From positions 1-64,000 of the forward strand of contig NZ_JARNTW010000027.1 of NCBI RefSeq assembly GCF_029433105.1: DNA of 64,000 nucleotides. The letters are read 5' to 3'. A model generated the notes under the pieces. The model ran no database searches and had not been told where the DNA came from. It worked only from the letters and a program-made list of their open reading frames with translations. Numbering within the stretch: position 1 is the stretch's first letter; every line of letters begins with the position of its first letter. Shown here piece after piece: positions 31,506 through 64,000 of the stretch. This DNA comes from Runella sp. MFBS21. GTDB taxonomy: Bacteria; Bacteroidota; Bacteroidia; Cytophagales; Spirosomataceae. A program made the position numbers and the translations under genes.

Positions 31506-33044
31506 TCATTTTATCACTTTCAATACCACCACCGAATAGGCAGGAATTGTCAACTTTAGCACACCTTTTTCGAGTTTTGCGCCCGAAAAGTCTTTGATAC
31601 TTACTTTATTGGGTTGTTCAAAAGTATTGTGATCACTGATTTTGGAAGAAGCCAAAATTTGCCCCGATACTTTTGAAAAGTCTTCGCCCCGTAAATTGAT
31701 AGTCACCTCGTGCACTTTGGTATAGTCGATATTGGTCAACGAAATATTTACCGCATTTTGGGCGTCTTTGGAAGCCGATACCGAAACCGCAGTTAGTTTT
31801 TTACCATTAAATTCATAGGAAGGGGCTTCGATGTCAATCGGAATCAACTTTGCGTCTTGATGTACATTGTACATTTTCATGACATGGTAGGTGGGAGTCA
31901 AAAGCATTTTTTCTTCATTGGTCAGAATCACCGCTTGCAGTACATTCACAATCTGTGCAAGATTGGCACCTTTTACTCTATCCGCATGATTGTTGAAAAT
32001 ATTGAGGGTAAGACCTGCTATCATAGCATCGCGCATGGTATTTTGCTGGTACAAAAACCCTGGATTGGTTCCTTCTTCCACATTGTACCACCCCCCCCAC
32101 TCATCTACAATCAAGGCTACTTTTTTGGCAGGGTCATACTTATCCATGATTGTACTGTGACCTTTGATAAACTCGTCCATTTTCCAAGCTTCGTCCATGG
32201 TCTTGAAATATTGAGCTTCACTAAAACCTACTGAGGGTCCTTTATCGCCCCAACTCAACACCGAATAATGGTGCAGCGCCACTCCCTGCATCATGTTATG
32301 AGGAATGTTTTTCATCAACGTTTCGGTCCAGTCATATTGGCCGTCGCTCGCACCCGAAGCTATTTTGTAAAGTTTGGCATCTTTATGATCTGACATAAAC
32401 GTAGCATATTGACGGTAGATATTTGAATAGTATTCAGCGGTCATATTGCCTCCACAGCCCCAAGCTTCATTGCCCACACCCCACAATTTCACATTCCAAG
32501 GCGTTTCGCGTCCATTTTTTTTCCTCAATTCTGACATAGGACTACCCGCAGGGTGATTGACATAGGTCACCCAATCGGCCAAATCTTTCACAGTACCGCT
32601 TCCTACATTACCTGCCAAATAAGGCTCTGCTCCTATCCGCTCGCACATATCCAAAAAATCATGGGTTCCAAAACTATTATCTTCTGTCACGCCTCCCCAC
32701 CAGATATTGACCATCTTGGGGCGATTAGCTTTGGGGCCGATACCATCTTTCCATTGATAGGCATCAGCAAAACAACCTCCAGGCCAACGTAAATTAGGGA
32801 CTTTCAGGTCTCTAAGCGCCTGAATTACATCGTTACGAACACCCGCAGTATTGGGAATCTTGGTATTTCCTTCGCCTACGTACATCCCACCATAAATACA
32901 TTTTCCCAAATGCTCCGCAAAGTGTCCATAAATATGCTTATTGATTTGAGTTTTAGCCAAATCAGTATTTAGCGTAACTTTTGTCTGAGCCAAAACTGCC
33001 AAGGCTCCACAAACGAGCATAATTGATAAAAATCCTTTTTTCAC
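31506..33044 (-). CDS. GH51 alpha-L-arabinofuranosidase (short form)
   Basis: A 512-residue exported retaining arabinofuranosidase that removes arabinose from arabinoxylan. Signal peptide ends VLAQ. The TIM barrel shows HIYGHFAEHLG, the acid/base Glu193 in WGVGNEAWG and the nucleophile Glu315 in LIVDEWGGWY, followed by the C-terminal beta domain. The start codon is GTG, in a good MKKGFL-type context. It is the last gene of the PUL and is separated from GH10 by a probable terminator. A second, longer GH51 lies 20 kb upstream. Confidence 0.9.
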   Translation of the reverse strand: MKKGFLSIMLVCGALAVLAQTKVTLNTDLAKTQINKHIYGHFAEHLGKCIYGGMYVGEGNTKIPNTAGVRNDVIQALRDLKVPNLRWPGGCFADAYQWKDGIGPKANRPKMVNIWWGGVTEDNSFGTHDFLDMCERIGAEPYLAGNVGSGTVKDLADWVTYVNHPAGSPMSELRKKNGRETPWNVKLWGVGNEAWGCGGNMTAEYYSNIYRQYATFMSDHKDAKLYKIASGASDGQYDWTETLMKNIPHNMMQGVALHHYSVLSWGDKGPSVGFSEAQYFKTMDEAWKMDEFIKGHSTIMDKYDPAKKVALIVDEWGGWYNVEEGTNPGFLYQQNTMRDAMIAGLTLNIFNNHADRVKGANLAQIVNVLQAVILTNEEKMLLTPTYHVMKMYNVHQDAKLIPIDIEAPSYEFNGKKLTAVSVSASKDAQNAVNISLTNIDYTKVHEVTINLRGEDFSKVSGQILASSKISDHNTFEQPNKVSIKDFSGAKLEKGVLKLTIPAYSVVVLKVIK

Positions 33045-33109
33045 TGAATCAATGAGTTAGTTTAACAAAATCATTTCAAAAACTTCGTGTCAAAACGACA
33101 CATTTCGTA

Positions 33110-33141
33110 CTAAAAAAAGAGGAGCGCCATACGCTCACTCC
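33110..33141 (-). terminator. Probable terminator after the GH10 gene (minus strand)
   Basis: On the minus strand GAGCG-TATGG-CGCTC forms a short hairpin followed by CTCTTTTTTT, 60 bases past the GH10 stop. The stem is short, so read-through into GH51 is possible. Confidence 0.55.
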
Positions 33142-33200
33142 AAAAATAACTTATCTATCTATTAATCCAATAAAATATCAGTAAAATTACAAATCCTTCC

Positions 33201-34795: not shown

Positions 34796-36226
34796 TTAAT
34801 GCGCCCTGAAATTCCATTTAGAATTATCACTATCAAAGTCAAATTCGGCAAGCATCGGTGTGCTATCTCCTGATGATACCAACGCCAGTTTTTTGCCCGA
34901 ATTTGGCACGACCTTGGGCATTATTCTGTAGGTACCATCCGTTAGCTGGTCTATTCGCCATAATTGTTCTGGACTACCTGTAAAGACGGGGACAGTTATT
35001 ACCTGAGCATCTGCGGTTGCGGATAATGCTCGTTCGGTACCTGCTAATACAATTTTGTAATATGGACCGCCTAAATAACCAGTAGAGTCAGGTGCATCGG
35101 TAATGGTCCATTTTTGGTGAGGGCGATACATGTAATCACCTATGCGCACATTAATGTTACCTGTTGGCCAATTTTTAATCACATCAGCTAATTCCTGAGC
35201 AGGCACTGGTTTAATAGGCTCAGTATTGGCTTGGCTAAAGCCTCGCTGGGCAACAGCCATTCTGCTAAAATCTACGGCGAGTTCTAAACCATATCCTCTT
35301 CTAACCGATTCTATTTCAAACGTTCCCTCTTTAAATTTTTCACCAGCTACTGGCCAGCCATCTTTCCAGACAATGGGAAGGATACCCAATACACTGCGAC
35401 CACCCTGATCCAAATCTGCCTCGTAATGAATTGACATTTTTTCAACACCTTTTTCAAGAATTATTCGTCCAAAATGCCCAGGGCCTATGAGTCGCCCACG
35501 CGTAGCCACCACCATTTTGCCACCACCTTCCATCATGCTTCTACCTACATTATCAAAGTAAGGCCCGGTTACTTTTTTAGAACGGCCCACTACTACATTA
35601 TACGTTGAGTTGGCACCATCGCAACAGCTCCCGTGGGTAGCAAGCAAATAATACCAGCCATCTCGATATATCAAATCAGCAGCCTCACAAACTATGGCTA
35701 CATCTACAGGTTTATTTCCATCTTTGAGTTTCCCTGTTTTTGGATCTAGCTCAATAATGCGAGTGAATCCATAATAGGTACCGTAGGCTAACCAGAGTCG
35801 GCCTGTGGTAGGGTCTAACATGATACCAGGGTCTATGGCATCGTTTTCTTCGTAACCATCTGAGGTAGCTACTATTACGGGTTCAGAATACTTAAAGTCG
35901 GGCGATTTTGGATCAAGTGTCTTATTCCACATTGTATAGATAATACCTTTGTGCGAAGGGCTACCACCAGTTGCCCCATAAACCACCAGATAGCGATTAC
36001 CAATTTTGATAGCATCGGGAGCAGCGCCCCCACCTGGCCTGACACCGCCTCCAAACCACGTCCAACCATCTTCTGATATTAACCCTCCGCCACCTGTTCC
36101 AAAGGTGTAGAATTTTCCGTCACATTCTACAATCGTTGAAGGGTCATGGATAAAAGGTTTGCCTACCTGAGCTAATACAGTAGTTGAAAGTAGTACTGAT
36201 AAAAAAATAATTAGTTTACATTTCAT
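34796..36226 (-). CDS. GH43 arabinanase/arabinofuranosidase with beta-trefoil-like tail
   Basis: A 476-residue exported five-bladed propeller enzyme acting on arabinan or arabinosyl side chains. Signal peptide ends VLAQ. The catalytic triad is visible: base Asp28 (IHDPSTI), Asp132 (AIDPGIM) and acid Glu181 (IVCEAADLIYRDGWYY). CDGANSTYNVVVGRS and GPYFDN support an endo-arabinanase-like GH43 subfamily. Residues after about 340 (PHQKWTITDAPD, EQLWRIDQLTDGTYRI, GKKLALVSSGD) look like a ricin-type beta-trefoil. Exact specificity cannot be read. Confidence 0.88.
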   Translation of the reverse strand: MKCKLIIFLSVLLSTTVLAQVGKPFIHDPSTIVECDGKFYTFGTGGGGLISEDGWTWFGGGVRPGGGAAPDAIKIGNRYLVVYGATGGSPSHKGIIYTMWNKTLDPKSPDFKYSEPVIVATSDGYEENDAIDPGIMLDPTTGRLWLAYGTYYGFTRIIELDPKTGKLKDGNKPVDVAIVCEAADLIYRDGWYYLLATHGSCCDGANSTYNVVVGRSKKVTGPYFDNVGRSMMEGGGKMVVATRGRLIGPGHFGRIILEKGVEKMSIHYEADLDQGGRSVLGILPIVWKDGWPVAGEKFKEGTFEIESVRRGYGLELAVDFSRMAVAQRGFSQANTEPIKPVPAQELADVIKNWPTGNINVRIGDYMYRPHQKWTITDAPDSTGYLGGPYYKIVLAGTERALSATADAQVITVPVFTGSPEQLWRIDQLTDGTYRIMPKVVPNSGKKLALVSSGDSTPMLAEFDFDSDNSKWNFRAH

Positions 36227-36252: not shown

Positions 36253-37008
36253 TTAATCTTTGCTAATACTGATATTTTTGACAGGGTGGTCCCTTTGGTC
36301 AATAAAACGAAGGCAAAAATTAGCCATCCCTGGGCCATTAATTACTGCTCCCCGAATAATATTTCTCCCCTTTTTTAAGGTTAATAATGGTGAAGCCACA
36401 TTGTCAACTATCATATCTCTGTCACCTGAAAGCATCAGTATTTCTTGACCATTGAGCCAAAACATCCCTCCCGAATTACATCCAGCAGTCATCCTTACAT
36501 TCGGTATTTCCTCTGAACAGTCAATGACGGTAACCAACCAAAAAAGTAAGCCATACTTCGGTTTGTTGATGTCATAGGAAAAATTGAACAAATTAAAATT
36601 AAAGGTTTTACTATCCAGAGCATACCAGTTGAGAGCCTGATTACCAACCTTTACCATTTCACCAGCCTTGGGTATCATTAAATAATCTTCCGAAAAATTA
36701 TTGTTTTTGAACTCACTGCGTAAGTAATTGTCTGTGAAGATATTATTTCTTGCTATGTCTTTTTTGATTGGTTCTAACACCAACCACCTATGAATAAAAC
36801 CATTAGCATAGGGAGCTATTTTAGTATTGGTAGCCAATTTAAAGTGCCTTGTTAATGTATGTGTAGTGTCACCTTTTATAGGTATTGGTGGCAGCGGTGC
36901 TCTTTGCTGACCAGGGGGCTGCGCTGTGGCTTGGTATATAAGAGTTTGTCCAGTAAGCAAAATGCCCAATGACAAAAGTGGAAATAATAATTTTTGTATT
37001 CTTTTCAT
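36253..37008 (-). CDS. Exported protein of unknown function in the PUL
   Basis: A 251-residue exported protein (signal peptide ending QATAQ; then a Pro-rich PPGQQRAPLPPIP linker). The rest is beta-rich with a conserved-looking core (LNWYALDSKTFNFNLFNFSY, FWLVTVIDCSEEIPNVRM, GMFWLNGQEILML) that resembles the ligand-binding sandwich appended to some secreted esterases; no catalytic motif is seen. I do not recognise the family. It starts 26 bases before GH43 in transcription order, is strongly A/T-rich relative to the esterase block, and is probably co-transcribed with the GH43. Confidence 0.65.
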   Translation of the reverse strand: MKRIQKLLFPLLSLGILLTGQTLIYQATAQPPGQQRAPLPPIPIKGDTTHTLTRHFKLATNTKIAPYANGFIHRWLVLEPIKKDIARNNIFTDNYLRSEFKNNNFSEDYLMIPKAGEMVKVGNQALNWYALDSKTFNFNLFNFSYDINKPKYGLLFWLVTVIDCSEEIPNVRMTAGCNSGGMFWLNGQEILMLSGDRDMIVDNVASPLLTLKKGRNIIRGAVINGPGMANFCLRFIDQRDHPVKNISISKD

Positions 37009-37214: not shown

Positions 37215-41363
<4,149 letters not shown>

Positions 41364-41368: not shown

Positions 41369-42298
41369 TCAATTACTTGGATATTCGCTTTCTGGTTTTA
41401 GGCTAATAGTGTCTTTAGTGGGAAAATCATTTGGTACTCGATAACTGACTTTTTTTGTCGCTAACCACTCCGCAGCCCTTATCATGGTTGTTTGAAAACC
41501 TACACACCGATAGGCAGGAGGATATTTTTCTCCACGCCAAAGATGTCCCATGCTTGAGTTATAAACTCGTCCTTTTCCATAGTTAACGACCCATTCTACC
41601 GGCCACATTTTTTGAGTACCTGTGCTGTCATAGGCATAGGAAAGTACAGTCAGATTTTCGGCAGATCCTCTCGGATAGTGATATACTTCCGTATTGGCTG
41701 TTTGCCATTGTTTCGGAAAATTTTTATTGATAGGATGTCTGTTTAGAACCGTAATCAAGGCATTAAATCTATCCCCATGCCCCGTACCTGCGCCTTCATT
41801 AGGGGGAATTCTGTTAATATTTTCATTAATCTCTACCATTAAAGCATACCCAAAACTTTTGGGACGCCACCCCATTCCAATCATTTTGTCGTATTCTTCC
41901 CAATGAGAAAAAGCATTGTTTCCCGAATGCAGAATATATAGTCCACCTCCATTTTTTACGTATTTTTCTAAACCTAATTCGGCACTTTTTGACCATCTCA
42001 ATTTCTGATTCCAAATGTTGTTGGTATTCTGAATCACGACCGCATATTTTTCAAAATTTGGGTTCCAACTTTCTAAGCTGAGACTGTCAGCAGGAACGGT
42101 GGACACATCAATTACAAATTTGCCGCTTTGCTCAAGTATCCATTTGGTCACAGCAGTAGTTTGTTTCCAATCATGGTTACTAAAGCCATCTACAATTAAG
42201 ACCTTGATTTTTGAGCGTTTTTGAGCCAATATGCTTTCAGGAATACTTCCCAAAAAAGCAAGCCCAGCCAATATTCGAATCCATTGGATTGCTTTCAT
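41369..42298 (-). CDS. Exported ThuA-fold protein
   Basis: A 309-residue exported protein (signal peptide ending SILAQ) of the ThuA family: KVLIVDGFSNHDWKQT, NNIWNQKLRWSKSAELGLEKYV, GGGLYILHSGNNAFSHW, VEWVVNYGKGRVYNSSMGH. The fold resembles class I glutamine amidotransferases but the function is unknown; exported members often occur in carbohydrate loci. It lies between two similar esterase genes, with 15-17-base gaps, and its bases are visibly more A/T-rich than both. Confidence 0.85.
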   Translation of the reverse strand: MKAIQWIRILAGLAFLGSIPESILAQKRSKIKVLIVDGFSNHDWKQTTAVTKWILEQSGKFVIDVSTVPADSLSLESWNPNFEKYAVVIQNTNNIWNQKLRWSKSAELGLEKYVKNGGGLYILHSGNNAFSHWEEYDKMIGMGWRPKSFGYALMVEINENINRIPPNEGAGTGHGDRFNALITVLNRHPINKNFPKQWQTANTEVYHYPRGSAENLTVLSYAYDSTGTQKMWPVEWVVNYGKGRVYNSSMGHLWRGEKYPPAYRCVGFQTTMIRAAEWLATKKVSYRVPNDFPTKDTISLKPESEYPSN

Positions 42299-42313: not shown

Positions 42314-43477
42314 TTACTTGAACAAAACAGGTAAGGTCTCATTAAGATATTTCTTCACGTTCATCCACGTGTGGCCGCCGTCTGTGACGTAACTTTTGTA
42401 ATTTATCTTCTTGGTTTTCAGGTATTCTTCAAACTCGACGGTGCCTTTGTACAGAAAATCATCGGTACCAATGCCAGACCAGAGCAGCTTAAAATCCTTG
42501 TTGGTTTTGGCAGGATTTGAGGTAATGTTGGTAAAGCTTTTGTCCATCTCGGCAGGTGCAATGTAGGACGCATAGCTGCACACGTACGCAAACTTATCGA
42601 CGTTATTGAAGGCCGTGCGCAGCGTCTGTCCGCCCCCGCGCGAGAAGCCGCCAATGGCGCGGTTGTCGCGGTTGTTGATTGTTCGGTAATTTTTTTCGAT
42701 GTACGGAATGACGTGAGACACAAGGTCAGTTTCAAACAGTTTCATTCGGCGCAGGGCATCGTCGCCGTCGCGGCTCATCACATCGGCAGGTTTGTCTTTG
42801 CCCGTTTGTTCGGCAATTTTCGCCAGCGGATTCCCGTAAGGCATCACCACAATCATGGGCTTGGCCGTGCCCGCCGCAATCATGTTGTCGAGCATCAGGT
42901 TTACCTTACCCACTTTCCAGAAGGTTTCTTCGGTATCGGTCGTGCCGCTGATGAGGTAATAGACAGGGTATTTTTTGGCGGTTTCTTTGGTATAACCCGC
43001 TGGTGTATAGACAACAACCGTCCCCGTTGAACCTTCGACCGACGGATAATATTCGTAGGTAATGGAGCCGTGTGGTACGTTTTTCAACGCGTAAATGGCA
43101 GGTTCATCCGACGGAATTTCGACCAGACTGGCCTTGAATCGCTCGTTGGGAAAGAAGGCGACGTTGGCAGGATCCATCACCGTAACGCCATCCACTTTAA
43201 AACTGTATGGGTAAATATCGGGCTTAACTGGGCCAACGGTGACCGACCAGACGCCCTCCGCGTTTTTGGTCAACGGCACATCGACCTGCCCGAATTGACT
43301 CCCGCCCAACAGCACCGTTTTGGCGTTTGGCGCTAAGTACGAAAACGTCACGGTTTTGTCGGAATTGACTTTGGGCGAAATCACAAACGGCCCGCGCGGT
43401 GGCTGGGCCAACCCTGCAAATGGAACAAGAATCAGCAAAAGAAAGCCGATTTGTTTGAAGAATGTAAGGGTTTTCAT
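42314..43477 (-). CDS. CE1-type esterase (paralogue B)
   Basis: A 387-residue exported esterase like paralogue A: signal peptide ending GLAQ, Ig-like domain (KPDIYPYSFKVDGV), then a CE1 hydrolase with Ser279 in GGFSRGGGQT and His369 in DGGHTWMN. Unusual: the oxyanion-loop motif that reads LHGG in relatives is YYLISGTTDTEE here, so the usual His is Ser. An insertion with KDKPADVMSRDGDD sits before the catalytic serine. Activity is probable but not certain given the loop change. Confidence 0.85.
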   Translation of the reverse strand: MKTLTFFKQIGFLLLILVPFAGLAQPPRGPFVISPKVNSDKTVTFSYLAPNAKTVLLGGSQFGQVDVPLTKNAEGVWSVTVGPVKPDIYPYSFKVDGVTVMDPANVAFFPNERFKASLVEIPSDEPAIYALKNVPHGSITYEYYPSVEGSTGTVVVYTPAGYTKETAKKYPVYYLISGTTDTEETFWKVGKVNLMLDNMIAAGTAKPMIVVMPYGNPLAKIAEQTGKDKPADVMSRDGDDALRRMKLFETDLVSHVIPYIEKNYRTINNRDNRAIGGFSRGGGQTLRTAFNNVDKFAYVCSYASYIAPAEMDKSFTNITSNPAKTNKDFKLLWSGIGTDDFLYKGTVEFEEYLKTKKINYKSYVTDGGHTWMNVKKYLNETLPVLFK

Positions 43478-43517: not shown

Positions 43518-45602
43518 TTAATTAGCCGTAATTACATCCAGTTCGGCATACCCTGAGGCTGTTTTTCCCTGTGTGTTTTTCAACGCTCGAAACCTAATGT
43601 AACGCGCCGAAACGGGAGAAAAGGTTTTGATTTGCCAAAATGGGCTGTTTTTAATGTTGGAAAATTCGCCCTCACTGACGGTTTTCCAGTCCGTATTATC
43701 CTGCGACACTTCAAATTGATAATGGGTAATGATGCTTCCTTCTTCCCACCAGTTTTGGGCAGGTAAGTAGCGGAAACCTTCAAGACGTTCTACCTTTCCC
43801 AAGTCGATGACCAATTCTGCCGGCATCGGTTGGTTTCTTTTTTGATGCCACGACGTACCCGGATTGCCATCAAGCAGCTTGTTGGCATTTGCATCTTCGG
43901 TACTCAGGATTTTCCAGTTTTTGCGGGAAATATCAAACTTCTCTTCACTCGCAATGCTGGCCTGATTGGTAAACGGATTAAACGTAATGGCCTTGATGTC
44001 TGCTTTGCCCTCATCCGTTTTGACAAGGGACGTGTATTTGGCCGACGAAGAGGTAGGCGTGCTGCCATCGGTTGTATAATAAATCACCGACTCTTTATCT
44101 CCCGACACAAACTGAACCAGCCCTTCTTTATCCCTAAGAATGGTAGGGGGAGTCAGAACGATGGGGGCTTTATACACTTCAATGTTTGAAATGAGCGGAC
44201 AGCCTTTGGCGTCTAACACATTGAGCCGCAATTTGGTAGCCTCGACGGTCGGGAATCTCAGAATACGCTTATAGCCAATGGTGGTTTCTTTGGCGATTGG
44301 CACCCATTTTCCGTCCACAAATGCTTCCACACTAAACGATTTCACCCGTTGCCCCAATCGGATGGGTTCCTGCACCAGAAAGCGGTTGAAAGTGGTGGGT
44401 TTTCTAAAATCCAGCGTAATCGAGCCTGAGGTTGAGTTATCGTCGGTAGCCCAATAAGAATCAACATCGCCGTCAATCGCCTTATTGGCTCCATAGCGAG
44501 CGTTTTTGCCGCGTACCTGCTCCGAAGAAGCGACCGCGTTTTTGGCCAGATTTTGGGCAAAGGTTTCTTTGATTGTTTTGGTCAATTCCTGAATTGCTTT
44601 TTCGTCTTTTTCGTGAATCAGGCCGTTGGGCATAATCGGAAAATTGAGCAAAAGCGTACTGTTCCGCCCAATCGAGTGATAATAAATATCCAGCAACTGA
44701 GGCAACGTTTTTACTTTTCTGTCTTCGCGTTCATGGTAAAACCACTCTGGCCGAATGGAGGTATTCACTTCTCCGGGTACCCACGCATTGCCATTTTCAA
44801 CGCCGTGACGCAGCATTTGCTCGGGTACATCGCCCGTGGCATTCAATAAACTCCAGTTGGTTTCGCCCACGTAGCCCGATTCGGTACCCACCCAGCGCAA
44901 GTCGGCGCGGTCGCCGCCGTCGTTCCAAATCACCATCTTAGGCTGCAACTTGCGGACAAGCTGGTAGGTAGTTGACCAGTCGTAGTAGGTTTTTGCGTCA
45001 ATTTTACGGGTTTCATTCGCCCCACCATAGTAGCCCGAACCCCCGTTGGCGCCGTCGAACCATACCTCGAAAACTTCGCCGTAGTTGGTGAGTAATTCCG
45101 TAAGCTGATTTCTGAAATAAGTGATGTATTCGGGTTTGCCATAATCGGGGTGATTTCGGTCCCAGGGCGACAAATACACCCCGAATTTTAACCCGAATTC
45201 TTTACAGGCATCGGCCATTTCACGAACCATATCCCCTTTACCGTTTTTCCATGGCGAATTTTTGACGGAGTATTCAGTGTATTTCGACGGCCACAGGCAA
45301 AAACCGCTATGGTGTTTGGCCGTAATAATAATTCCCTTCATGCCTGCTTCCTTGCAGATTCTGGCCCATTGTCGGCAATCCAGTTTTTCGGGGTTAAAAA
45401 TCTTCGGGTCTTCGTTCCCAAATCCCCACGCCATATCCGTGTAGGTATTCACGGAAAAATGCACAAAGGCATAGTATTCCATTTTTTGCCACCGCAACTG
45501 ATTCTGCGAAGGAAGCGGACCAACTGGTTTGGGTTCATTCTGCGTATAACCCGTGTAGAATGAAAGCCCCAAAAAGAATAGTATAAAAAGTCTTTTTTTC
45601 AT
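43518..45602 (-). CDS. GH29 alpha-L-fucosidase with C-terminal sugar-binding domains
   Basis: A 694-residue exported retaining glycosidase. Signal peptide ends YTQN. The GH29 barrel spans about 25-355: FVHFSVNTYTDMAWG, IITAKHHSGFCLW, and the nucleophile Asp183 in EVWFDGANGGSG. An F5/8-type C domain follows (YGANKAIDGDVDSYWA), then a chitobiase-C-like segment (YYTTDGSTPTSS), then a second F5/8-type domain (KLLDGNPGTSWH). The acid/base residue was not assigned. It would remove terminal L-fucose or related sugars; with GH95 and GH97 it suggests capped side chains on the target glycan. Confidence 0.92.
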   Translation of the reverse strand: MKKRLFILFFLGLSFYTGYTQNEPKPVGPLPSQNQLRWQKMEYYAFVHFSVNTYTDMAWGFGNEDPKIFNPEKLDCRQWARICKEAGMKGIIITAKHHSGFCLWPSKYTEYSVKNSPWKNGKGDMVREMADACKEFGLKFGVYLSPWDRNHPDYGKPEYITYFRNQLTELLTNYGEVFEVWFDGANGGSGYYGGANETRKIDAKTYYDWSTTYQLVRKLQPKMVIWNDGGDRADLRWVGTESGYVGETNWSLLNATGDVPEQMLRHGVENGNAWVPGEVNTSIRPEWFYHEREDRKVKTLPQLLDIYYHSIGRNSTLLLNFPIMPNGLIHEKDEKAIQELTKTIKETFAQNLAKNAVASSEQVRGKNARYGANKAIDGDVDSYWATDDNSTSGSITLDFRKPTTFNRFLVQEPIRLGQRVKSFSVEAFVDGKWVPIAKETTIGYKRILRFPTVEATKLRLNVLDAKGCPLISNIEVYKAPIVLTPPTILRDKEGLVQFVSGDKESVIYYTTDGSTPTSSSAKYTSLVKTDEGKADIKAITFNPFTNQASIASEEKFDISRKNWKILSTEDANANKLLDGNPGTSWHQKRNQPMPAELVIDLGKVERLEGFRYLPAQNWWEEGSIITHYQFEVSQDNTDWKTVSEGEFSNIKNSPFWQIKTFSPVSARYIRFRALKNTQGKTASGYAELDVITAN

Positions 45603-51710: not shown

Positions 51711-53735
51711 TTAGATTTTCTTGGCTTGGGTTTTAATACGGATTACGGTCAGCGACATAGGCGGGGCAACATACTCAAATCCCTTGGTCACCTTAATGGC
51801 TGAGCTGGCGGGTGTAATGTTGGTTGGCTTTTCTAAAGTGTTTTCAGTGTTTTCTTCACCCAAAAGAATCGTTTGTGCTGCGTCAGGCAAGAAGTTTTTA
51901 AAAGCTGCCAGATTGACTTTCATGGTCTTGGCAATTTTGCCTGTATTGACCATTTTCAAGATAACATCGCCCGTTTGGGTGTCTTTCACGCACGAAGCGG
52001 CAAGGGTTGTATCTTTCGAGTCTTTAGAAATAATCTGCTCAAAATATTCGTCGCCCTGATTGGTGGTAAACATTTTTTGAACATGATAATTGGGTGTCAG
52101 ACTGACCCGCTTGTTGTCGAAAAAAATCATGTCAGTTTTCCATTGCGTATGGTCTTTTTTTGCCAAAAGGGGAGCGTAGGACGCCATTTTAACCACATCG
52201 CCATTGCGTTCCAGGCCTATCATGTAGGCGGCTTCGGCAATGGCATTACCCAATTTATTGCCCCATGAAGCATATTCGCCTAAATACACCCCTGCTTTGG
52301 TGCGGTCGTATCTATCGTAGCGATTCAGGTTGGAGAGAAACCATTTTGGCTCTTTATAGTAGTGTTCGTCAACAATCGAAACCGCGAGATCATTTGAAAT
52401 TTTCCAGCCTTTTTCAAAGTCTTCGCCCTCAGAAAATGGCCCCGAAGTACCAATCAGCGTGATTTGAGGGTATTTTGCTTTAACCGCCTGTGTGATCATC
52501 TTAAATCGTGCTTCAAATTCGGGCGAGATTTTATCCTCGTTTCCGATGCCGATATATTCCAGATTGAACGGCTCAGGATGCCCCGCAGCCGCCCGTTTGG
52601 CTCCCCAGACAGACGTGGCAGGGCCATTGGCCCACTCAATTAAATCCAGAACTTCCTGAACATATTCGTCCATTTCTTCCATGGGCAGAGCTTGCTGACC
52701 TGTTCCGCCCACTCGCCACGTTCCGCCCGAATTTTGGCAACTGACGGCAGCAGGCAATACGGGCAATGGCTTAGCTCCGATGTCTTCGCAAAATTGGAAA
52801 TATTCAAAATAGCCTAAACCTGCGGTTTGGTGATAGCCCCACAAGTTTCGTTGCTCTACACGCTGCTCCACAGGCCCAATGGTATTTTGCCAGCGATACA
52901 TATTGCCCACACCGTCGCCGTGAGCCAAACAGCCGCCAGGAAAGCGAATGAAGGCGGGCTTCATGTCGGCGAGCAATTGTGCCAGATCAGCCCGTAAGCC
53001 ATTTGGACGGGTTTTGAAGGTTTTTTCGGGAAAAAGCGATACTACATCCAACGCCAGTTGGCCTTCGGTGGTGGCCAGAACGACCAGCGAGGTCGAATCG
53101 TTGCTTTCTGACGGGGCTAAGGTTGCGGTATAGTTACGCCAATTTTTGGCATCGACGGTCAGTTCGGTTTCGGCCAGTACTCTTCCTTTGGGCGCCTGAA
53201 GGCTCACTTTTACGGAAATTGGTGTGGTTGAAAGTAGTCGCGAAAACATCGAAAAATTATATTTTTCGCCTTGCTTTACCACGATGTAATCAAAGCCTGT
53301 GTTTTTAATTCCTACCCCTGGCGTACCCTTGTTTTCCGGTATATCAGTGCGGGGGCCAAAGGCGTGAACGCCCACACGGTTTATCGTCAATACGGCATAG
53401 TGGGGGTTGTTGGGGTGAACGGGTTCTTTGGTTTCGATACTTAGATTGCCGTAGGAAAAAACGGGCGTAATGTATTCCCAAAACGAAAGGTGATGCCAGT
53501 TGCGTTGCTCAGCAGGATTGTACTCAAACGAGCGATTTTGAATTTGTTCGGCATACAGCCCACCGTCGGCAGCATAGTTGATGTCTTCAAAAAATAACCC
53601 GAACAGGTACGGGCTGATTTTTTTGCTTTTGGGGTAATTATTTTTCGAGGTCTGGGCAAAACCATTGTCATGCAGTCCTAACCCAATCAGTAAGCCTATC
53701 AGTATTAATCTGACCCAATTATTTTTAGTATTCAT
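51711..53735 (-). CDS. GH51 alpha-L-arabinofuranosidase (long form with CBM4-like insert)
   Basis: A 674-residue exported arabinofuranosidase. Signal peptide ends GFAQ. After YLFGLFFEDINYAADGG, residues about 80-235 form a galactose-binding-like insert typical of long GH51 enzymes. The barrel contains FIRFPGGCLAHG, acid/base Glu400 in YIGIGNEDKI and nucleophile Glu487 in VYLGEYASWG. It differs from the short GH51 at the locus end. The ATG of MNTKNNWV is preceded directly by one copy of the 45-bp repeat, which therefore forms the leader. Confidence 0.92.
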   Translation of the reverse strand: MNTKNNWVRLILIGLLIGLGLHDNGFAQTSKNNYPKSKKISPYLFGLFFEDINYAADGGLYAEQIQNRSFEYNPAEQRNWHHLSFWEYITPVFSYGNLSIETKEPVHPNNPHYAVLTINRVGVHAFGPRTDIPENKGTPGVGIKNTGFDYIVVKQGEKYNFSMFSRLLSTTPISVKVSLQAPKGRVLAETELTVDAKNWRNYTATLAPSESNDSTSLVVLATTEGQLALDVVSLFPEKTFKTRPNGLRADLAQLLADMKPAFIRFPGGCLAHGDGVGNMYRWQNTIGPVEQRVEQRNLWGYHQTAGLGYFEYFQFCEDIGAKPLPVLPAAVSCQNSGGTWRVGGTGQQALPMEEMDEYVQEVLDLIEWANGPATSVWGAKRAAAGHPEPFNLEYIGIGNEDKISPEFEARFKMITQAVKAKYPQITLIGTSGPFSEGEDFEKGWKISNDLAVSIVDEHYYKEPKWFLSNLNRYDRYDRTKAGVYLGEYASWGNKLGNAIAEAAYMIGLERNGDVVKMASYAPLLAKKDHTQWKTDMIFFDNKRVSLTPNYHVQKMFTTNQGDEYFEQIISKDSKDTTLAASCVKDTQTGDVILKMVNTGKIAKTMKVNLAAFKNFLPDAAQTILLGEENTENTLEKPTNITPASSAIKVTKGFEYVAPPMSLTVIRIKTQAKKI

Positions 53736-53852: not shown

Positions 53853-53853
53853 T

Positions 53854-56282: not shown

Positions 56283-57956
56283 TTATTTCAAGACAGCATC
56301 ATTACCGCTGTATTTCAGGAATTTAAACGTAGCGGAGTTGTCTGATTTTTCACCATTTGAAGTAGCATACATAGCATACACATTGCCAATAAATCCACCT
56401 GATACTTTGGTAGATAAGTGCTTCCCATCTAAGTTTTCGGCAACGATTTTGTAAGTTTTACCGTTTTCAGAAATCTCAAAATCAACTTTATCGGCTTTTG
56501 AAGTTATTTTTAAATTCAATTTGCCATTTCCTACGGGTAGCGTATTTATCAATTCTACGTCTTTTTTGCGATGCACACTTTTGTATAATTCCACTTGTGT
56601 TTTACCATCTTTGATAGATTTTGCCAAAAAGTAAAAATGGCTTTCGTCTTGATAAATCACTAAACCCGCCTTTTCTTTTTCAGTTTTTGGCGTAAAATTC
56701 AACTCTGTTTCAGCTACTGAATACATGTGTTGCTGGCGTTTGGCCACAAAAGATGGATTGCCCAACTCTGAGATAGTTTCAGGCTTGAGTTTAAGCGTTA
56801 GACCATTTTTAGAAGTTTTAAATGAACTGCTATCAACCGTTCGCAAGTGCATTAGCGAAAGGTCGAGTCCTTTGTCGAAGGTCATGGTATAAGCAAAATT
56901 GCCGTTTTGCGGCAAAGCCCCTTTCTGTTTTACCTCCTTGATGTTGGTTTGGTATTTGTACTCGATGGCTTTTTCGCCGTGCTCAATCATTGGCCAATCG
57001 TTTACCCATGTGAGCGGAGCAATGAACATTTCACGACCAGTATTATAATAATCACCTTCGTAAGGGCGAACAGCCAAGAAAATTGAATACCAATTGCCGT
57101 CAGGGCCTTCAATAAACTGGGCGTGTCCTGCCGACGTAATCGGGTTGGGGCGGTCGGCGGGTAAGCCTCTTTGGGTCAAGACTGGATTACCTTCAAACGG
57201 CACATACGGCCCCCAAATATCTTTGCTGCGCAAGGCCACCTGCGAGTGATTCACGGACGTTCCGCCTTCGGCACAATAAAGAATATACCAATCGTTGCGT
57301 TTCAAAATGTGTGGACCTTCAATCCAAACTGGTTTTTTAGTAATATCCACCCCACCGTTTATCAATTGCTTTTTTTCTCCGATAGTTTTTAAGTTTTTGT
57401 AATCAAACTCATACATCTGAACGGTGCGATGACCCGGGTAAAGTGGTTTATTATCAGGAGCATCGCTATTATAAACGATGTATGCTTTATCGGTAGCTTC
57501 GTCAAAATAAATGGATGGGTCGATGCCCCTGACTTGTGGAAGTTTTACAGGGTTGCTGTAAGGGCCAGCAGGGTTGGTGGCAGTAACCACAAAGTTCCCA
57601 TCATGGTCAATATCAGTGCAGGTTACGTAGTATATGCCTTTGTAATAAGTAATGGCAGGAGCAAAAAGCCCACGACTCATCCGCTCGCCCATAAAATCCA
57701 TTTGTGACGGACGGCTGATGACGTTGCCAATTTGCTTCCAGTTTTTCAGGTCGCGGCTGTGCATGATGGGCAGCCCTGGAAAGTACGAAAAGGTAGAATG
57801 TACACTGTAATAATCAGGCCCCACTTTGACAATACTCGGGTCAGGATAAAAACCCGTCAGAATCGGATTGTTTAAGGTAACTTTCTGGGCTTGCGCAAGT
57901 GGACTCAATGCCATTAAGCAAGCAAGACAAAAGGTGGTGAATGCAGTTTTCAACAT
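56283..57956 (-). CDS. GH43 beta-xylosidase/arabinofuranosidase (XynB-like)
   Basis: A 557-residue exported GH43 enzyme. Signal peptide ends AQAQ. Catalytic residues: Asp39 (GFYPDPSIVKVG), Asp146 (RGIDPSIYFD) and Glu213 (WIEGPHILKRN). HSTFSYFPGLPIMHSRDLKNW is typical of large xylosidase-like GH43 subfamilies, and the C-terminal half (TELNFTPKTEKEKAGLVIYQ) is a DUF1349-like sandwich. The in-frame GH95-overlapping upstream codons are ignored in favour of the ATG of MLKTAF. It follows GH95 by 31 bases and is probably co-transcribed with it. Confidence 0.88.
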   Translation of the reverse strand: MLKTAFTTFCLACLMALSPLAQAQKVTLNNPILTGFYPDPSIVKVGPDYYSVHSTFSYFPGLPIMHSRDLKNWKQIGNVISRPSQMDFMGERMSRGLFAPAITYYKGIYYVTCTDIDHDGNFVVTATNPAGPYSNPVKLPQVRGIDPSIYFDEATDKAYIVYNSDAPDNKPLYPGHRTVQMYEFDYKNLKTIGEKKQLINGGVDITKKPVWIEGPHILKRNDWYILYCAEGGTSVNHSQVALRSKDIWGPYVPFEGNPVLTQRGLPADRPNPITSAGHAQFIEGPDGNWYSIFLAVRPYEGDYYNTGREMFIAPLTWVNDWPMIEHGEKAIEYKYQTNIKEVKQKGALPQNGNFAYTMTFDKGLDLSLMHLRTVDSSSFKTSKNGLTLKLKPETISELGNPSFVAKRQQHMYSVAETELNFTPKTEKEKAGLVIYQDESHFYFLAKSIKDGKTQVELYKSVHRKKDVELINTLPVGNGKLNLKITSKADKVDFEISENGKTYKIVAENLDGKHLSTKVSGGFIGNVYAMYATSNGEKSDNSATFKFLKYSGNDAVLK

Positions 57957-57987
57957 GGTTATTCGTAAAGTATTCAATTTCTTTAAT

Positions 57988-60462
57988 TTATTGATTAACA
58001 AAGACATACGACTTCCCTGCCTGCGTTGGCACATCGTATAGCACCGTTTCTTTCAACGAAAGAGGCACGACATTAGCTTTGGCCGAAATGACAGGCGTTG
58101 CGGTTTTCTGGGTGACATAAAACGCGTTCGGATTCTCGCCCGTTGCAGGCTTCAAACTACCGCCACTGGTAAGTTTGAGGGCATTCGGCGTACGCACCCT
58201 CAGGTTGCCTCCTAAGGTTGATTTTACGGTTAGTTTGATCAATTTGCCGTCTTTCCACTGCATGTCTGTCACCTCAAAACCGCCGATGGCGCGTAGGCCG
58301 CCTACGTTGCCAGTGGGCCACACATCGGGCAGTGCGGGCAGCAGGTGTACAGCACCGTCAGCACTTTGCATCAGCATTTCGGTAATCCCCGACGTACAGC
58401 CAAAATTGCCATCAATCTGGAACGGTGGGTGTGCATCAAACAGGTTGTTATAGGTTCCGCCGCCTTCCTTGATGACACCAAGTGGCGTTAACTGATTCTG
58501 AATCAAGGCATAGGCGTGGTTACCATCCTGCAACTTGGCCCACCAGTTTACTTTCCAGCCCATGCTCCAGCCCGTCGAAACGTCGCCACGGTGGATGAGG
58601 GTAGTCCGTGAGGCATTGAATAATTCGGGGGTGCGGTAAGGAGAAATCTGGTTAGATGGAAACAGGCCGTACAGATGCGACACGTGGCGGTGGTGGTCGT
58701 TGGGGTCGTCCACGTCGTCGAGCCATTCCTGCAACTGACCGTACTGACCTACGTGCATCGGAGCTAGTTTATTTCGTAGTTGTTTGAGCGTATCGGCAAA
58801 AGAGACGTCTTTTTTGAGGATTTCCGTCGCCCGAATCACCGTACTGAAGGCATCAAACACAATCTGGTTGTCCATCGTAGTGCCTGCGTCCAGCGACGAA
58901 CCGTCGTGGGCTTGCGGGGCGTTTTCGGGGGAGCTTCCGGGGTTGATCACCAGCCATTTGTATTTTGGGTGTTCTATTAAAAAGTCGGCATAGAAAAGAG
59001 CCGCACCTTTCAGAATGGGGTAAATTTTTGTCAGATAAGCTTTGTCGCCGCTGTACAGATAATGCTCCCACAAGTGTTGGGCAGTCCAGCCGCCGCCGCC
59101 GAGCCACATACCCCAAAATGCCCCGTCAATGGCTCCCGTTGCCCGCCAGATGTCGGTATTATGGTGCGCCATCCAGCCACGGGTGTGGTACATTTCACGC
59201 GCCGTTTGCTGACCTGTTTCAGACAACTCCGTTACCATTTTCAAAAACGGTTCGTGCAGTTCCGACAGGTTGGTTTTTTCGGCAGGCCAGTAGTTCATCT
59301 GGGCATTGATGTTGATGGTATATTTGCTGTCCCACGGCGGTTTCATACGGTGGTTCCAGATACCTTGCAAGTTGGCAGGTTGCCCCGATTCTATTTTATT
59401 GCTTGGCTGCGAAGACGAAATCAGCAGGTAGCGGCCGTATTGGTAATAGAGCGTAACCAACTGAGGGTCATTGACCGAGCGGAAATTTTTAAGCCGTTCA
59501 TCGGTGGGGAGTTGTGCAGCATTGGTTGTTCCAAGGTCTAGTTTTACACGATTAAAAAACCTTTGGTATGCAGTGATATGAGTGGGTAAAATGGTAGCAT
59601 ATTGTTTGGCATAAGCTTTGTTCAAATAGGCCAATGCCCTGGCATTTTCATCGCCGCTGAGGTCTTTATAACTGTTAAAATTAGTAGCGATAGAAATGTA
59701 AATAGTAGCAGAGGTTGCTCCTTTGACAATCAACGCGGTATCATTGGCGGTGATACTTCCGCCTTGGGTTTTGATACGGGCAATACTTTTGAACTTCACC
59801 ATGCCTTTCACGCCCTCATGATCGGAGGTAATACCTGATAAAGTCAATTCATTTGAAGAAACCGTCTTGATTTCTTTTTGGGCATGAGGTGTGGCATAAG
59901 AAGCTGCAAAAGACAAACTTCCCGATTTATCGGCTGTCAATTGTATCACAATCACTCGGTCGGGCAAAGAGGCAAGCACCTCACGTGTATATTTTACTCC
60001 ATTGACTGTATAGGTCGTTTTGGCCACTGCCCGTTCAATGTCCAATTCACGATAATAATCTGTATAATTTTCATGTCCGTCAAACGTAAGCTGCAAGCTC
60101 CCGACGGGCTGGAACATCTGCCCGTGCGATTTTTTGGTGATAATGGTTTTATTGGCCAGTTTTTCAGCATCTTTTTGTTTTCCGTCAAAAATCAGCTGGC
60201 GCATTTGGGGCAACGAGGCCCACGCGTCGAGGTTATCATTACGGTTGGGGCTACCTGACCAAACCGTGTGTTCATTCAACTGAATCGTTTCTTTGCCGAC
60301 ATTGCCATAAATCATGCCGCCCAATCGCCCGTTACCAATCGGCAAAGCATTTTCCCATACGGTTCCCGCAGGTTTGTTGTACCAAAGTTTGAGGTTTTTA
60401 GCTTCTTGAGAAAAACCTAGAGATGATAAAATCAGTAAACAAAGCAAAAAAAACTGTTTCAT
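57988..60462 (-). CDS. GH95 alpha-L-fucosidase/galactosidase
   Basis: An 824-residue exported inverting GH95 enzyme, first gene after the susCD terminator. Signal peptide ends GFSQ. N-terminal sandwich ([36 protein letters not shown]) then a helical barrel with [13 protein letters not shown] (the paired Asn of the family), NPGSSPENA (acid Glu) and QIDGNFG (the Asp). GH95 members remove alpha-1,2-L-fucose or, in some xylan loci, terminal L-galactose. A promoter in the 350-base gap upstream likely drives it and the following genes. Confidence 0.9.
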
Positions 60463-60732: not shown

Positions 60733-60773
60733 AAAAACCACAAAAGATGTAAGTGGCAACTGCCACTTACATC
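60733..60773 (-). terminator. Terminator after SusD (minus strand)
   Basis: GATGTAAGTGGCA (60746-60758) and TGCCACTTACATC (60761-60773) form a perfect 13-bp stem. On the minus strand it is followed by CTTTTGTGGTTTTT. It lies 40 bases after the susD stop and would separate susCD from the enzyme genes. Confidence 0.8.
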
Positions 60774-60812
60774 CCATTCATGCGATTTATCTTCTACTGA
60801 CTCACTTCCATT

Positions 60813-62624
60813 TTAATAACCAGGGTTTTGCGTAAAAGCAGGCCCCTCCACTGTACGATCTATTTGCGACTGAGGAATCGGTCTTAATATATGAAAATCT
60901 TTTACATAAGGTCCAGCCTCACTATTCCAGGCTTTTATGCGTCGTACCAAAGTTTTAGTACGTACCAAATCGTGGTATCTCATCCACTCACCAAAAAATT
61001 CACGACTTCTTTCATCCAAGATAAAATCAACGGTTACTTCATCGGCAGTAATCGTCATGGCAGCGGCAGCGGCGGCATTTTGTGCTGCGGTGTTCGTCTT
61101 TCGATAAGCAGCTCTTTGACGAACTACATTGAGCAATTCGGCAGCTTTTGCTTTGTTTCCTGATTGAAGATAGGCTTCTGCACCTACTAAGTAAACTTCC
61201 GAAAAACGTGTAATCACTACCGGACGCGTGGAAGGGTCATTGAAATTACTGCCACGGCTTGGATCCATGTGCTTCTTGATAGCAGGGTATAAATTGGCAT
61301 TCCACATGCTTGGAGTCGCGACGATCCCCTTAAAAGGTCTCGTGCCAACGAACTGAGGAGCACCTACCACTTCATAATCTGTGATCCATACGGCGGTATC
61401 AACACCGACCTGCGTTGTATATCCAATACCTCGCTTGTTATTTGCCGCCGTTGGGGTATTCGTTACCGAAGTATTAGAGATATATACCGTATAAAATGTA
61501 TTGTTAAATCTTGAATCTACATCCCTTTTTACAAACGCCTGATCCAGAAAGTAATTTTTGCCAGTAGCCTCTCCGGAAGTTTGTTTGACGCTGTTGGGGC
61601 GAATGCGGGCATACGGACGGCCATAGTATGAGTCACGAATCATCCCTGAAGTGCCAGAGTTTACCAATACACCTGATGCATTGACAAAGGAATTCATACC
61701 ACTGTTGTTCGGGTAGTTCCAGTTGGTAAACCAGGGCGTCAGGTTTTGAGCGTCACCGCCACTGGATCCCCCTCCTACGGTATAATATCCAAACTTAGCA
61801 TCATTTGAGTGATCACTAACAAACATAGTTTCTTTACCATAGTCATTGGCAGGCACAAAAGCGTCGCCAAAATCCTGCCACAACTCTAACCCATAGGTTC
61901 CTTTATTAGCAATAATATCACTCGAAATTTTAGCAGCCTCCGCAAAATCTGCTTGTGAATTTGTCAGCCAACCACGGGTCAAATAGGCTTTTGCCAGAAA
62001 AAATAAAGCCACAGGTTTGGTCGCAGCCTTTCCTAAGAAGGGAGCGGTTGGTTTATCGGGCAAAGCAGCGGCGGCTTCGGTCAAGTCCTGAATAATCAAC
62101 TTATATACTTCTGTTGCGGGGTCTCTTTTGGCACTTTGTGAGGGAACCGTAATAAACTCAGTACTCAATGGAACATCTCCCCATGTTTGCACCAAATAAA
62201 AATACCAGAAAGCTCTCAAAAACTTGGCCTGGGCTAAATATTGTTTTTTGGTTGCTTCAGGTAGGTCAATACTCTGACCATATTTCAACACACCGTTGAT
62301 GGTATTGATTGCCACAAAAGACGTTCCCCAAGCCGAGCCGAAATTGGAACTATTAAGACCATTAAATGTATGTACCGGGCCGCCGCCACTGCTGGCTCCC
62401 TGAATGAATTCGTCGGTACCGGCCTGCATCTCTGTCGAAAACCCTTCGGTACCCCATTGGTTTCGGATTAGATTATATACGCCCGCAATCCCGCCTAATA
62501 CCCCGGCAGAACTGTTAAAGTAAGAAGGTACAATCTGCGATTGGGGATGCTCTTCTAGTATTTTTCCGCAACTCAGGCAAAACAATAACGTGAAGACAAG
62601 AATGGAGCTATGTATTTTTTTCAT
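60813..62624 (-). CDS. SusD/RagB-family nutrient-binding lipoprotein
   Basis: A 603-residue outer-membrane surface lipoprotein (lipobox ending CLSC, Cys 19). SusD features: the TPR-rich N-terminal half (KQYLAQAKFLRAFWYFYLVQTWGDVPL), AYLTRGWLTNS, and the C-terminal ITRFSEVYLVGAEAYLQSGN then DFILDERSREFFGEWMRYHDLVRT. It binds oligosaccharides and lids the SusC barrel. It begins 6 bases after susC and ends before a terminator. Confidence 0.95.
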   Translation of the reverse strand: MKKIHSSILVFTLLFCLSCGKILEEHPQSQIVPSYFNSSAGVLGGIAGVYNLIRNQWGTEGFSTEMQAGTDEFIQGASSGGGPVHTFNGLNSSNFGSAWGTSFVAINTINGVLKYGQSIDLPEATKKQYLAQAKFLRAFWYFYLVQTWGDVPLSTEFITVPSQSAKRDPATEVYKLIIQDLTEAAAALPDKPTAPFLGKAATKPVALFFLAKAYLTRGWLTNSQADFAEAAKISSDIIANKGTYGLELWQDFGDAFVPANDYGKETMFVSDHSNDAKFGYYTVGGGSSGGDAQNLTPWFTNWNYPNNSGMNSFVNASGVLVNSGTSGMIRDSYYGRPYARIRPNSVKQTSGEATGKNYFLDQAFVKRDVDSRFNNTFYTVYISNTSVTNTPTAANNKRGIGYTTQVGVDTAVWITDYEVVGAPQFVGTRPFKGIVATPSMWNANLYPAIKKHMDPSRGSNFNDPSTRPVVITRFSEVYLVGAEAYLQSGNKAKAAELLNVVRQRAAYRKTNTAAQNAAAAAAMTITADEVTVDFILDERSREFFGEWMRYHDLVRTKTLVRRIKAWNSEAGPYVKDFHILRPIPQSQIDRTVEGPAFTQNPGY

Positions 62625-62630
62625 CTTGAA

Positions 62631-64000
62631 TTAAAATTTAAGATTTAAACCTAAGGTATATTGACGCACTGGAGGGTTGTTGAGGTTGACCGTCACAAAA
62701 CGGTTAAAATTACCCCCTTGAATGGTATTACCGTAGCCGTTTCCTTCAGGATCAACCGCAAGCTTCGCTTTTACCAGCGGTGAATAAATAATGAAAGGAT
62801 TGGTCGCATTTAGGTAAATGCGGGCCGAAGAAATACCAAGTCTGTTAAGTGCTTTTGCATTGACCGTATAGCCTAAATTGATACTTCTCATTTTAATGAA
62901 AGAACCATCCTGGTAAGAAGTAGTGGAAGTAAAGTTTCGCACGCCGCCGCCGGCGTCAGGTTTGGGGAACGCATTTGTGGGGTTTTCCGGTGTCCAATAA
63001 TCCATTACCAATTGGTTGGAACGTCCTTGGTTCAAGAAACCAAAACCCGAACCACCGCCTGAAGTACCCGACAAATACGGAACAACTACTTTCATTCCCA
63101 TACGAGCGAATGTAACGATGGATAGGTCAAATCCTTTGTAGCTGATTCTGTTGGTTAAACCACCCTCCCACTTGGGTTGGAAGTTACCGATGATCTTGCG
63201 GTCATTGGCATCAATAATACCGTTGTTATCTACGTCTTCCACTCTGATCTCACCCGGAACCTGTACCGGCGATGTTTGTTTTTTCAGCGTGCCGTTATCC
63301 AAATCCGATTGTTGCCAGATACCGATTTTGTTGTAGTCATAAATAACCGTCAACGGCTGACCCACAAACCAGAAGTTTCCTTTGTTATCTAACTCGGTCG
63401 GTGTAGTAAGCTGCGTGATTTTTTCACGGTTAAAGAAATAGGTCACATCGGCGCTCCAATTAAAACCACCCTTATTTCTGAAAATATCAAACGTTAACGA
63501 AGATTCAAACCCTTTTCCTTCGGTTCTTCCTAAGTTTTTCAGGGTAGAGTTGGCACCGTTACTTTCCGGAAGGTTGACCGAAAGCAAAATGTCTTTCGTT
63601 TTTTGGAAATACACATCAAAGGTACCCATGATACGGTTGTTGAACAAACCGATCTCTAAACCGATATCGGTCTGAGCCGTTGACTGCCAACCCAGATTGG
63701 CCGCCGGAAGACTGGTAACGGTGTAGGCAAGTACCTGACCCGCAGCCGTTGTTCCAAAGTTGTAATAACCCGTTGAAAGCGCGCCTAAGGTGGCATACGC
63801 TCCTACGTTACGGTTACCTGAAATCCCCCAACCGCCTCTCAATTTTAAATTAGAGAAAACAGGTAACTCTTTCATAAATGACTCATCAATAATATTCCAA
63901 CTCAAACCAATGGCCGGATAGTTAAAGTATTGATTAGCGGGGGATAAGGTAGACGAACCATCTCTGCGGAACGTTGCTGTCAAGATATATTTATCATTGA
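62631..64000 (-). CDS. SusC/RagA-type TonB-dependent transporter, C-terminal part (cut by window edge)
   Basis: About 456 residues of the barrel of a SusC-type outer-membrane transporter; the plug and signal lie beyond base 64000. The frame is open through the edge (NDKYILTATFRRDGSS), and ELPVFSNLKLRGGWGISGNRNVG, LGRTEGKGFESSLTFDI, the barrel strand near YLNATNPFIIYSPL and the terminal LGLNLKF are typical. It would import the oligosaccharides prepared by the PUL enzymes and is the first gene of the susCD pair. Confidence 0.93.
   Translation of the reverse strand, partial: NDKYILTATFRRDGSSTLSPANQYFNYPAIGLSWNIIDESFMKELPVFSNLKLRGGWGISGNRNVGAYATLGALSTGYYNFGTTAAGQVLAYTVTSLPAANLGWQSTAQTDIGLEIGLFNNRIMGTFDVYFQKTKDILLSVNLPESNGANSTLKNLGRTEGKGFESSLTFDIFRNKGGFNWSADVTYFFNREKITQLTTPTELDNKGNFWFVGQPLTVIYDYNKIGIWQQSDLDNGTLKKQTSPVQVPGEIRVEDVDNNGIIDANDRKIIGNFQPKWEGGLTNRISYKGFDLSIVTFARMGMKVVVPYLSGTSGGGSGFGFLNQGRSNQLVMDYWTPENPTNAFPKPDAGGGVRNFTSTTSYQDGSFIKMRSINLGYTVNAKALNRLGISSARIYLNATNPFIIYSPLVKAKLAVDPEGNGYGNTIQGGNFNRFVTVNLNNPPVRQYTLGLNLKF

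Follow-up and report, generated by a model that had tools for sequence, protein, structure and literature searches.

In a 64,000-nucleotide window (the whole stretch of DNA analysed) from Runella sp. MFBS21, we find a polysaccharide utilization locus (PUL) and, within it, a small secreted protein, h251, encoded directly upstream of an enzyme of glycoside hydrolase family 43 (GH43) with a CBM13-like domain. Our reading, to which we assign a probability of about 65%, is that the PUL targets a complex acylated arabinoxylan and that h251, rather than being an esterase, is a stand-alone carbohydrate-binding module (CBM) of PA14-like type with that GH43 as its fixed partner. A complex xylan that is feruloylated, acetylated, arabinosylated and galactosylated is supported as the target by homology, because the locus encodes a GH10, a CE6-like esterase domain, five domains of carbohydrate esterase family 1 (CE1), a GH43 resembling BeGH43/FAE, a GH43_12-like GH43 and a GH95 of the type acting on corn xylan. 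The proposed role of h251 draws on its pairing with the GH43, its fusions to other enzymes and its predicted fold.

Organization of the locus

The window covers the first 64,000 bases of an 83205-base contig. The PUL runs on the minus strand from 31506 past the right end of the window to window-equivalent position 68066, continuing beyond 64000 with the rest of the SusC gene (to 66143), a FecR anti-sigma gene (66308-67384) and an ECF sigma gene (67458-68066), all on the same strand. All 19 genes from 31506 through SusD are likewise on the minus strand (Pfam). With a SusC/SusD pair, linked carbohydrate-active enzymes and a regulator, the locus has what defines a PUL in Bacteroidota. From right to left, its genes within the window are:

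62631-64000, minus (gene end at window-equivalent 66143): SusC-like TonB-dependent transporter, C-terminal part; TIGR04056, 820 bits
60813-62624, minus: SusD-like surface glycan-binding lipoprotein; PF07980, 109 bits
57988-60462, minus: GH95, likely alpha-L-galactosidase; 4UFC, 862 bits; Thr382/Glu513 align to Thr370/Glu501 of 4UFC
56283-58034, minus: GH43 with GH43_C2, GH43_12-like arabinofuranosidase; 7ERL, 366 bits; 7JVH (GH43_12), 359 bits
53875-56202, minus: GH146-like (PF07944) beta-L-arabinofuranosidase; 5OPJ, 749 bits; 4QJY, 68 bits
51711-53789, minus: GH51 arabinofuranosidase; PF22848 and PF06964
50141-51706, minus: GH43, homologue of the GH43 half of BeGH43/FAE; 6MLY, 832 bits
48021-50000, minus: GH97, likely alpha-galactosidase/beta-L-arabinopyranosidase; 5XFM, 804 bits
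45626-48034, minus: CE6-like SASA esterase fused to a type-B carboxylesterase; PF03629 and PF00135; GQSN and GESAG; best structure 8S6D, a fumonisin esterase
43518-45602, minus: GH29 with F5/8 type C domains; Pfam; 5K9H, 698 bits
42314-43477, minus: CE1 esterase with a weak CBM48; PF00756; GFSRG
41369-42298, minus: ThuA-like protein; PF06283, 76 bits
40269-41351, minus: CBM48-CE1 esterase; Pfam; GFSVG
39147-40256, minus: CE1, feruloyl-esterase-like; NF041944, 601 bits over its esterase half
37215-39137, minus: CE1-(CBM48)-CE1 double esterase, DmCE1B-like; N-terminal half 1JJF, 258 bits; C-terminal half 7B5V, 359 bits; two GLSMG
36253-37008, minus: h251, secreted, 251 residues, PA14-like predicted fold; pairs with the GH43-RicinB gene
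34796-36226, minus: GH43 with RicinB (CBM13-like), partner of h251; Pfam; endo-arabinanases at about 130 bits
34379-34795, minus: h138, 138 residues; Pfam matches all at or below 14 bits
33201-34301, minus: GH10 endo-xylanase; PF00331, 326 bits
31506-33044, minus: GH51 arabinofuranosidase, left end of the PUL; PF06964, 184 bits

A sequence-only reading of the window had described a continuous minus-strand block with SusC/SusD, GH95, three GH43, two GH51, GH97, GH29 and GH10, and searches with Pfam and TIGR04056 recovered every one of these. The gene it had called GH127 does carry PF07944, but its family is better given as GH146-like, with 749 bits to 5OPJ, which we take to be the GH146 enzyme BT0349, against 68 bits to the GH127 structure 4QJY. 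Its count of seven esterase domains also holds, four genes supplying five CE1 domains and a fifth gene one SASA and one carboxylesterase domain, each with a nucleophile motif (GxSxG, GQSN or GESAG), and the regulator that it guessed might lie beyond 64000 is there in the form of FecR and the ECF sigma factor. It had noticed no GH3, GH67 or GH115, and indeed none of these, nor GH31 or GH98, was found by Pfam among the 29 genes scanned at the locus; elsewhere, the genome (7.88 Mb, with 66 SusD matches) has one GH67 and one GH115. Missing from its inventory were the ThuA-like protein and two uncharacterised proteins, h251 and h138.

Recurrence in related genomes

Related loci were compared across 19 genomes from the family of the Runella strain, of which 7 belong to its genus, counting as a match an identity of at least 55%; the stretches are unequal in length, and the absence of SusC, SusD, FecR, ECF sigma or GH51 is therefore weak evidence. 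The double CE1 enzyme and the CE1 at 39147 were present in all 19 loci, and the SASA or carboxylesterase part in 18. The GH43 genes at 56283 and 50141 followed with 17 each, then the CE1 genes at 42314 (16) and 40269 (15), GH95 (14), GH10 (13), the GH146-like gene (11), GH29 (8) and the GH51 gene at 31506 (3). Because large parts recur in this way across related genomes, the arrangement is not a matter of chance.

The SASA-carboxylesterase fusion has full-length counterparts in seven more genomes of the genus, one of which carries an internal stop, and the two domains also share one frame in genome G187. Genomes G047, G084 and G093 (loci L011, L016 and L012) encode a CE6-like and a carboxylesterase domain in a single frame of 1117-1138 residues, with about 340-360 residues between the domains. 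The ThuA-like gene, which lies between two CE1 genes, was found in one of the 19 loci, that of the R. zeae genome. The small protein h138 accompanies GH10 and often also the h251 pair, in variable order (L136, L142, L148).

h251 and its GH43 partner

No Pfam model matched h251 at E-values up to 5, and no NCBIfam model matched it. A scan of named genomes returned 443 related stretches, the closest named relatives being those of Runella defluvii and R. zeae (93% identity each), and neighbouring genes were read in the best 79 loci. A GH43-CBM13-like gene lay directly downstream of h251 on the same strand in 77 of these 79; a count of plus-strand open reading frames (ORFs) over the same loci gave pairing in 80 of 82 cases, with gaps of -46 to 308 bases. 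Both misses (L135 and L147) are contig ends. Further surveys gave 30/30 (window included), 34/34 and 22/22, and from two sets of 101 and 81 positive genomes the best 30 loci at most were taken in each; the surveys overlap in part (L172 and G1019, for example, are one place), and all these counts describe best matches, with shorter, diverged ones such as those in genus g246 lying outside them.

The same picture emerged at the level of whole genomes. Among 396 Bacteroidia genomes, h251 was found in 10, four of them from the family of the window, and its GH43 in the identical 10. In 200 genomes of the family, each was found in 46 and both in 45, the two singles being G183, with a weak match to h251 inside an 884-residue frame (30% identity, E 7.7e-10), and G133, with a 310-residue piece of the GH43. 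Pairwise identities of h251 and of its GH43 correlate with r = 0.84 (80 pairs), as joint inheritance predicts.

Such a correlation would also be expected from co-transfer alone, and seven stretches of 20 kb, taken from other genomes in the family or, in the case of G050, from another place in its genome, carry the pair without the remaining PUL (L095-L101). The two genes might thus form a mobile two-gene unit, co-inherited without acting on each other. We regard this as unlikely, since neither gene occurred without the other in the 10 positive Bacteroidia genomes, the only singles in the family set were a weak match and a gene piece, and the GH43 still follows where h251 is fused to another enzyme.

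Correspondence of h251 to BACINT_01034

In a 6.9-Mb genome (G910), the gene order is CE1, h251 (232 residues), GH43-RicinB, SusC, SusD, SASA/CE1, CE1, BD-FAE, GH43, GH3, GH43-CBM6 and a hybrid two-component system (HTCS) regulator; the GH43-RicinB is 69% identical to that of the window. Ten of these 12 genes were called by Pfam, and SusC and one CE1 by BLAST. We refer to this genome as Bacteroides-type and to others as Bacteroidaceae-type, labels that derive from gene order and named relatives. The order equals that published for BACINT_01033-01044 (Pereira et al. 2021, PMC7815789), and h251 is therefore, by gene order, the orthologue of BACINT_01034. As the relevant passages of that paper have it, BACINT_01034 is a "hypothetical h1" or "putative esterase" and the sole protein that could not be produced, while its neighbour Bi1035-GH43 was the most active on arabinoxylans of four glycoside hydrolases tested and is called endo-acting (PMC7815789). 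Literature searches with BACINT_01034, BACCELL_02153, Bi1034 and HMPREF9447_02531 led to PMC7815789 only, besides an antibody paper in which "Bi1034" occurs, and no name for such a module appeared in titles and the beginnings of abstracts; within the reach of these searches, no published function of h251 was found. CAZy module X448, considered as a possible name for h251, led to a CE20 paper and was dropped.

Fusions and predicted fold of h251

In 16 of 34 loci, h251 forms the C-terminal part of a frame of 634-699 residues, joined to a GH43 in 14 and to a GH8 in two, and the GH43-CBM13-like gene still follows the fused form. A CBM6 match was found in all nine GH43 fusions scanned with Pfam out of the 14 (E < 0.01, five above the curated cut-off), and both GH8 fusions match PF01270. 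Attachment of this kind agrees with the definition of a CBM as a non-catalytic module; in the window, h251 is a separate protein.

A first AlphaFold model, built on an alignment of 29 close sequences (A1), was poor (pLDDT 56.9) and was discarded. Using residues 43-251 of the window protein with 57 more divergent sequences (A2), we obtained a model with a mean pLDDT of 92.9 and a pTM of 0.90. Foldseek searches of the PDB with this model placed sugar-binding PA14-type domains on top (E 1.7e-5 to 8.7e-4, probability 1.00), with 5A3L (Cea1A) first at 1.7e-5 and galactose- or arabinose-bound Marinomonas PA14 domains near 5e-4; the 15 matches with E no higher than 0.001 also include 2XVK, a GH31 alpha-xylosidase. 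When A2 was used as a profile against the PDB, a single match came up, at E 0.58.

These results bear on whether h251 is an enzyme, such as the esterase guessed for the Bacteroides orthologue, which PMC7815789 places between a CE1 gene and a GH43. Columns of Asp, Glu and Ser are conserved in the 57-sequence alignment, as a catalytic protein might require, but no His column is conserved, the best having His in 40 of 57 rows. Judged from this lack of a conserved His, h251 is unlikely to be an esterase. Its predicted fold is PA14-like rather than that of an alpha/beta-hydrolase or SGNH enzyme, and it occurs as a C-terminal appendage on complete GH43 and GH8 proteins, which makes an enzymatic role of any kind rather improbable. 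We therefore retain the view of h251 as a probable binding module. The GH3 of the Bacteroides-type EGE locus (L258, 14749-17334) contains a PA14 domain (PF07691, 47 bits), and two PA14-like modules may therefore serve that system.

Probable target glycan and enzyme specificities

The sequence-only reading had proposed an acylated arabinoxylan with fucose and galactose caps; homology bears out the acylated arabinoxylan. As caps, L-galactose and D-galactose (or beta-L-arabinopyranose) are more likely than fucose. In alignment to 4UFC, a B. ovatus alpha-L-galactosidase acting on corn xylan for which the roles of Thr370/Glu501 are described in PMC4491172, the locus GH95 keeps the L-galactose-type residue, Thr382, and not the fucose-type one. 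Alignments show the same Thr in two other GH95 chains, 7KMQ and 2RDY, so that the enzyme is not of the AfcA type, yet L-galactose is not thereby proven. The best structure for the GH97, 5XFM, is presumably BT3661. Of the double CE1 enzyme, the N-terminal half resembles the XynZ feruloyl esterase and the C-terminal half 7B5V, the same order of halves as described for DmCE1B (PMC8040265).

A different target, pectic arabinan or arabinogalactan, with GH10 and the esterases as accessories for mixed cell walls, would account for the two GH51 enzymes, the GH146-like enzyme, the GH97 near 5XFM and the GH43 nearest to endo-arabinanases, and sugar-beet pectin is also described as feruloylated (PMC7815789). 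We consider it decidedly improbable: GH10, the CE6-like domain, the BeGH43/FAE-like and GH43_12-like enzymes and the GH95 of corn-xylan type are tools for xylan, all 19 related loci have the double CE1 and the CE1 at 39147 and 13 have GH10, and the 29 genes scanned include no enzyme for a pectin or galactan backbone. Fucosylated xyloglucan was rejected as a target, given the L-galactose residue of GH95 and no GH31 among the same 29 genes.

Several observations weigh against the joint reading of the locus and h251. The best 15 PDB matches of the h251 model reach TM-scores of only 0.35-0.49 at 10-15% identity, and these modest scores place the kinship of h251 with PA14 at the level of fold; PF07691 (PA14) is among the Pfam models without a match to h251, and its top match in BFVD is an F5/8 type C protein, the remaining named matches being mostly PA14 or GLEYA. 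Nor is the pair constant in the PUL, as h251 and its GH43 were each found in 8 of the 19 related loci and several other related genomes carry the pair alone, outside the PUL, while GH97 was found in 4 and the GH51 at 51711 in none. The GH43 at 34796 is closest by sequence to endo-arabinanases, which makes arabinan a possible substrate of the pair. Finally, enzymes of the GH51, GH97 and GH146 types also work on arabinan or arabinogalactan, which counts against a pure xylan target.

Flanking genes and other features

Past the ECF sigma gene, on the plus strand, lie a sugar transporter of the major facilitator superfamily (MFS) and a GH43 in which no signal peptide is visible, followed on the minus strand by a NUDIX/AraR-type regulator. 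The left neighbour of the PUL is a plus-strand PepSY membrane protein. A terminator-like hairpin of 14 pairs (60744-60775) between the SusD and GH95 genes may uncouple expression of SusC/SusD from that of the enzyme genes. Farther left, at 25467-26777, a 436-residue ORF without a Pfam match adjoins a TonB-dependent receptor gene.

Proposed mechanism and implications

Based on these observations, we propose that the ECF sigma/FecR pair would control the PUL and that SusC/SusD would import oligosaccharides. The CE1, CE6-like and carboxylesterase domains would strip feruloyl and acetyl groups, GH95, GH97 and GH146 would take off galactose- or arabinose-type caps, and the GH43 and GH51 enzymes would remove alpha-L-arabinofuranose. 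The backbone would be cut by GH10 and the GH43-CBM13-like enzyme, with h251 binding xylan or arabinoxylan as a distinct subunit that assists this GH43. In some Bacteroidaceae-type genomes the module instead makes up the C-terminus of a GH43-CBM6 or GH8 protein whose gene immediately precedes that of the GH43 partner. Degradation may be finished in the cytoplasm through the neighbouring MFS transporter and the GH43 without a visible signal peptide.

A more far-reaching proposal, which we put forward tentatively and at somewhat less than even odds, is that h251/BACINT_01034 is the founding member of a new family of xylan-binding modules of PA14-like type; these would mostly act as separate polypeptides and, throughout Bacteroidota, combine with GH43-CBM13 into an obligate two-protein enzyme, in which case the GH43 would so far have been assayed without its natural partner. 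The h251 relatives, 443 stretches in the one scan of named genomes, are a candidate binding-module family. The result offers a concrete candidate role for a protein of the published locus that was never produced, and it calls the "putative esterase" label into question. The h251/GH43 pair is the part of the locus that merits bench work. At the level of the PUL, environmental Cytophagales appear to share the esterase-rich way of attacking decorated xylan that is known from work on gut Bacteroides, and to combine it with the removal of galactose caps.

Comparison with known systems

The B. intestinalis locus containing BACINT_01034 belongs to the EGE PULs, which are defined by more than two esterase genes and do not require an HTCS (PMC7815789); in the Runella locus, five genes encode seven esterase domains. 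As far as the published description extends, the two share CE1 and CE6-like esterases, several GH43 enzymes (one of CBM13 type), SusC/SusD and a CE1 gene immediately followed by the h251 - GH43-CBM13 pair. They differ in the regulator, an HTCS in the EGE PUL and ECF sigma/FecR in Runella, and in the partner of the CE6-like domain, a CE1 in the former and a type-B carboxylesterase in the latter. The Runella locus adds GH10, GH51, GH95, GH97, GH29, a GH146-like enzyme and ThuA, and, unlike the EGE PUL, has no GH3 among the 29 genes scanned (PMC7815789).

Its set of GH95, GH97, GH29 and GH146-like enzymes recalls PUL-XylL of B. ovatus, described as acting on complex glucuronoarabinoxylan (Rogowski et al. 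2015, PMC4491172), with which it shares GH10, GH43, GH97 and a GH95 that carries the L-galactose-type Thr. In contrast to PUL-XylL as presented there, it has many esterases and, among the genes scanned, no GH31, GH98, GH67 or GH115, and its GH97 is closest to chain 5XFM. With PUL 17 of Dysgonomonas mossii (PMC8040265) it has in common GH10, GH43, GH51, GH146, CE6 and a CE1-CBM48-CE1 enzyme; PUL 17 has in addition GH8, GH67, GH115 and HTCS regulators, unlike the Runella locus, and GH95 and GH97 go unmentioned in the passages describing it. The resemblance of h251 to the PA14/GLEYA sugar-binding domains of Cea1A (5A3L) and Marinomonas lies in the predicted fold, not in the Pfam model. Cumulatively, as a PUL, the Runella locus is a variant of the already known EGE/PUL-XylL-like kind.

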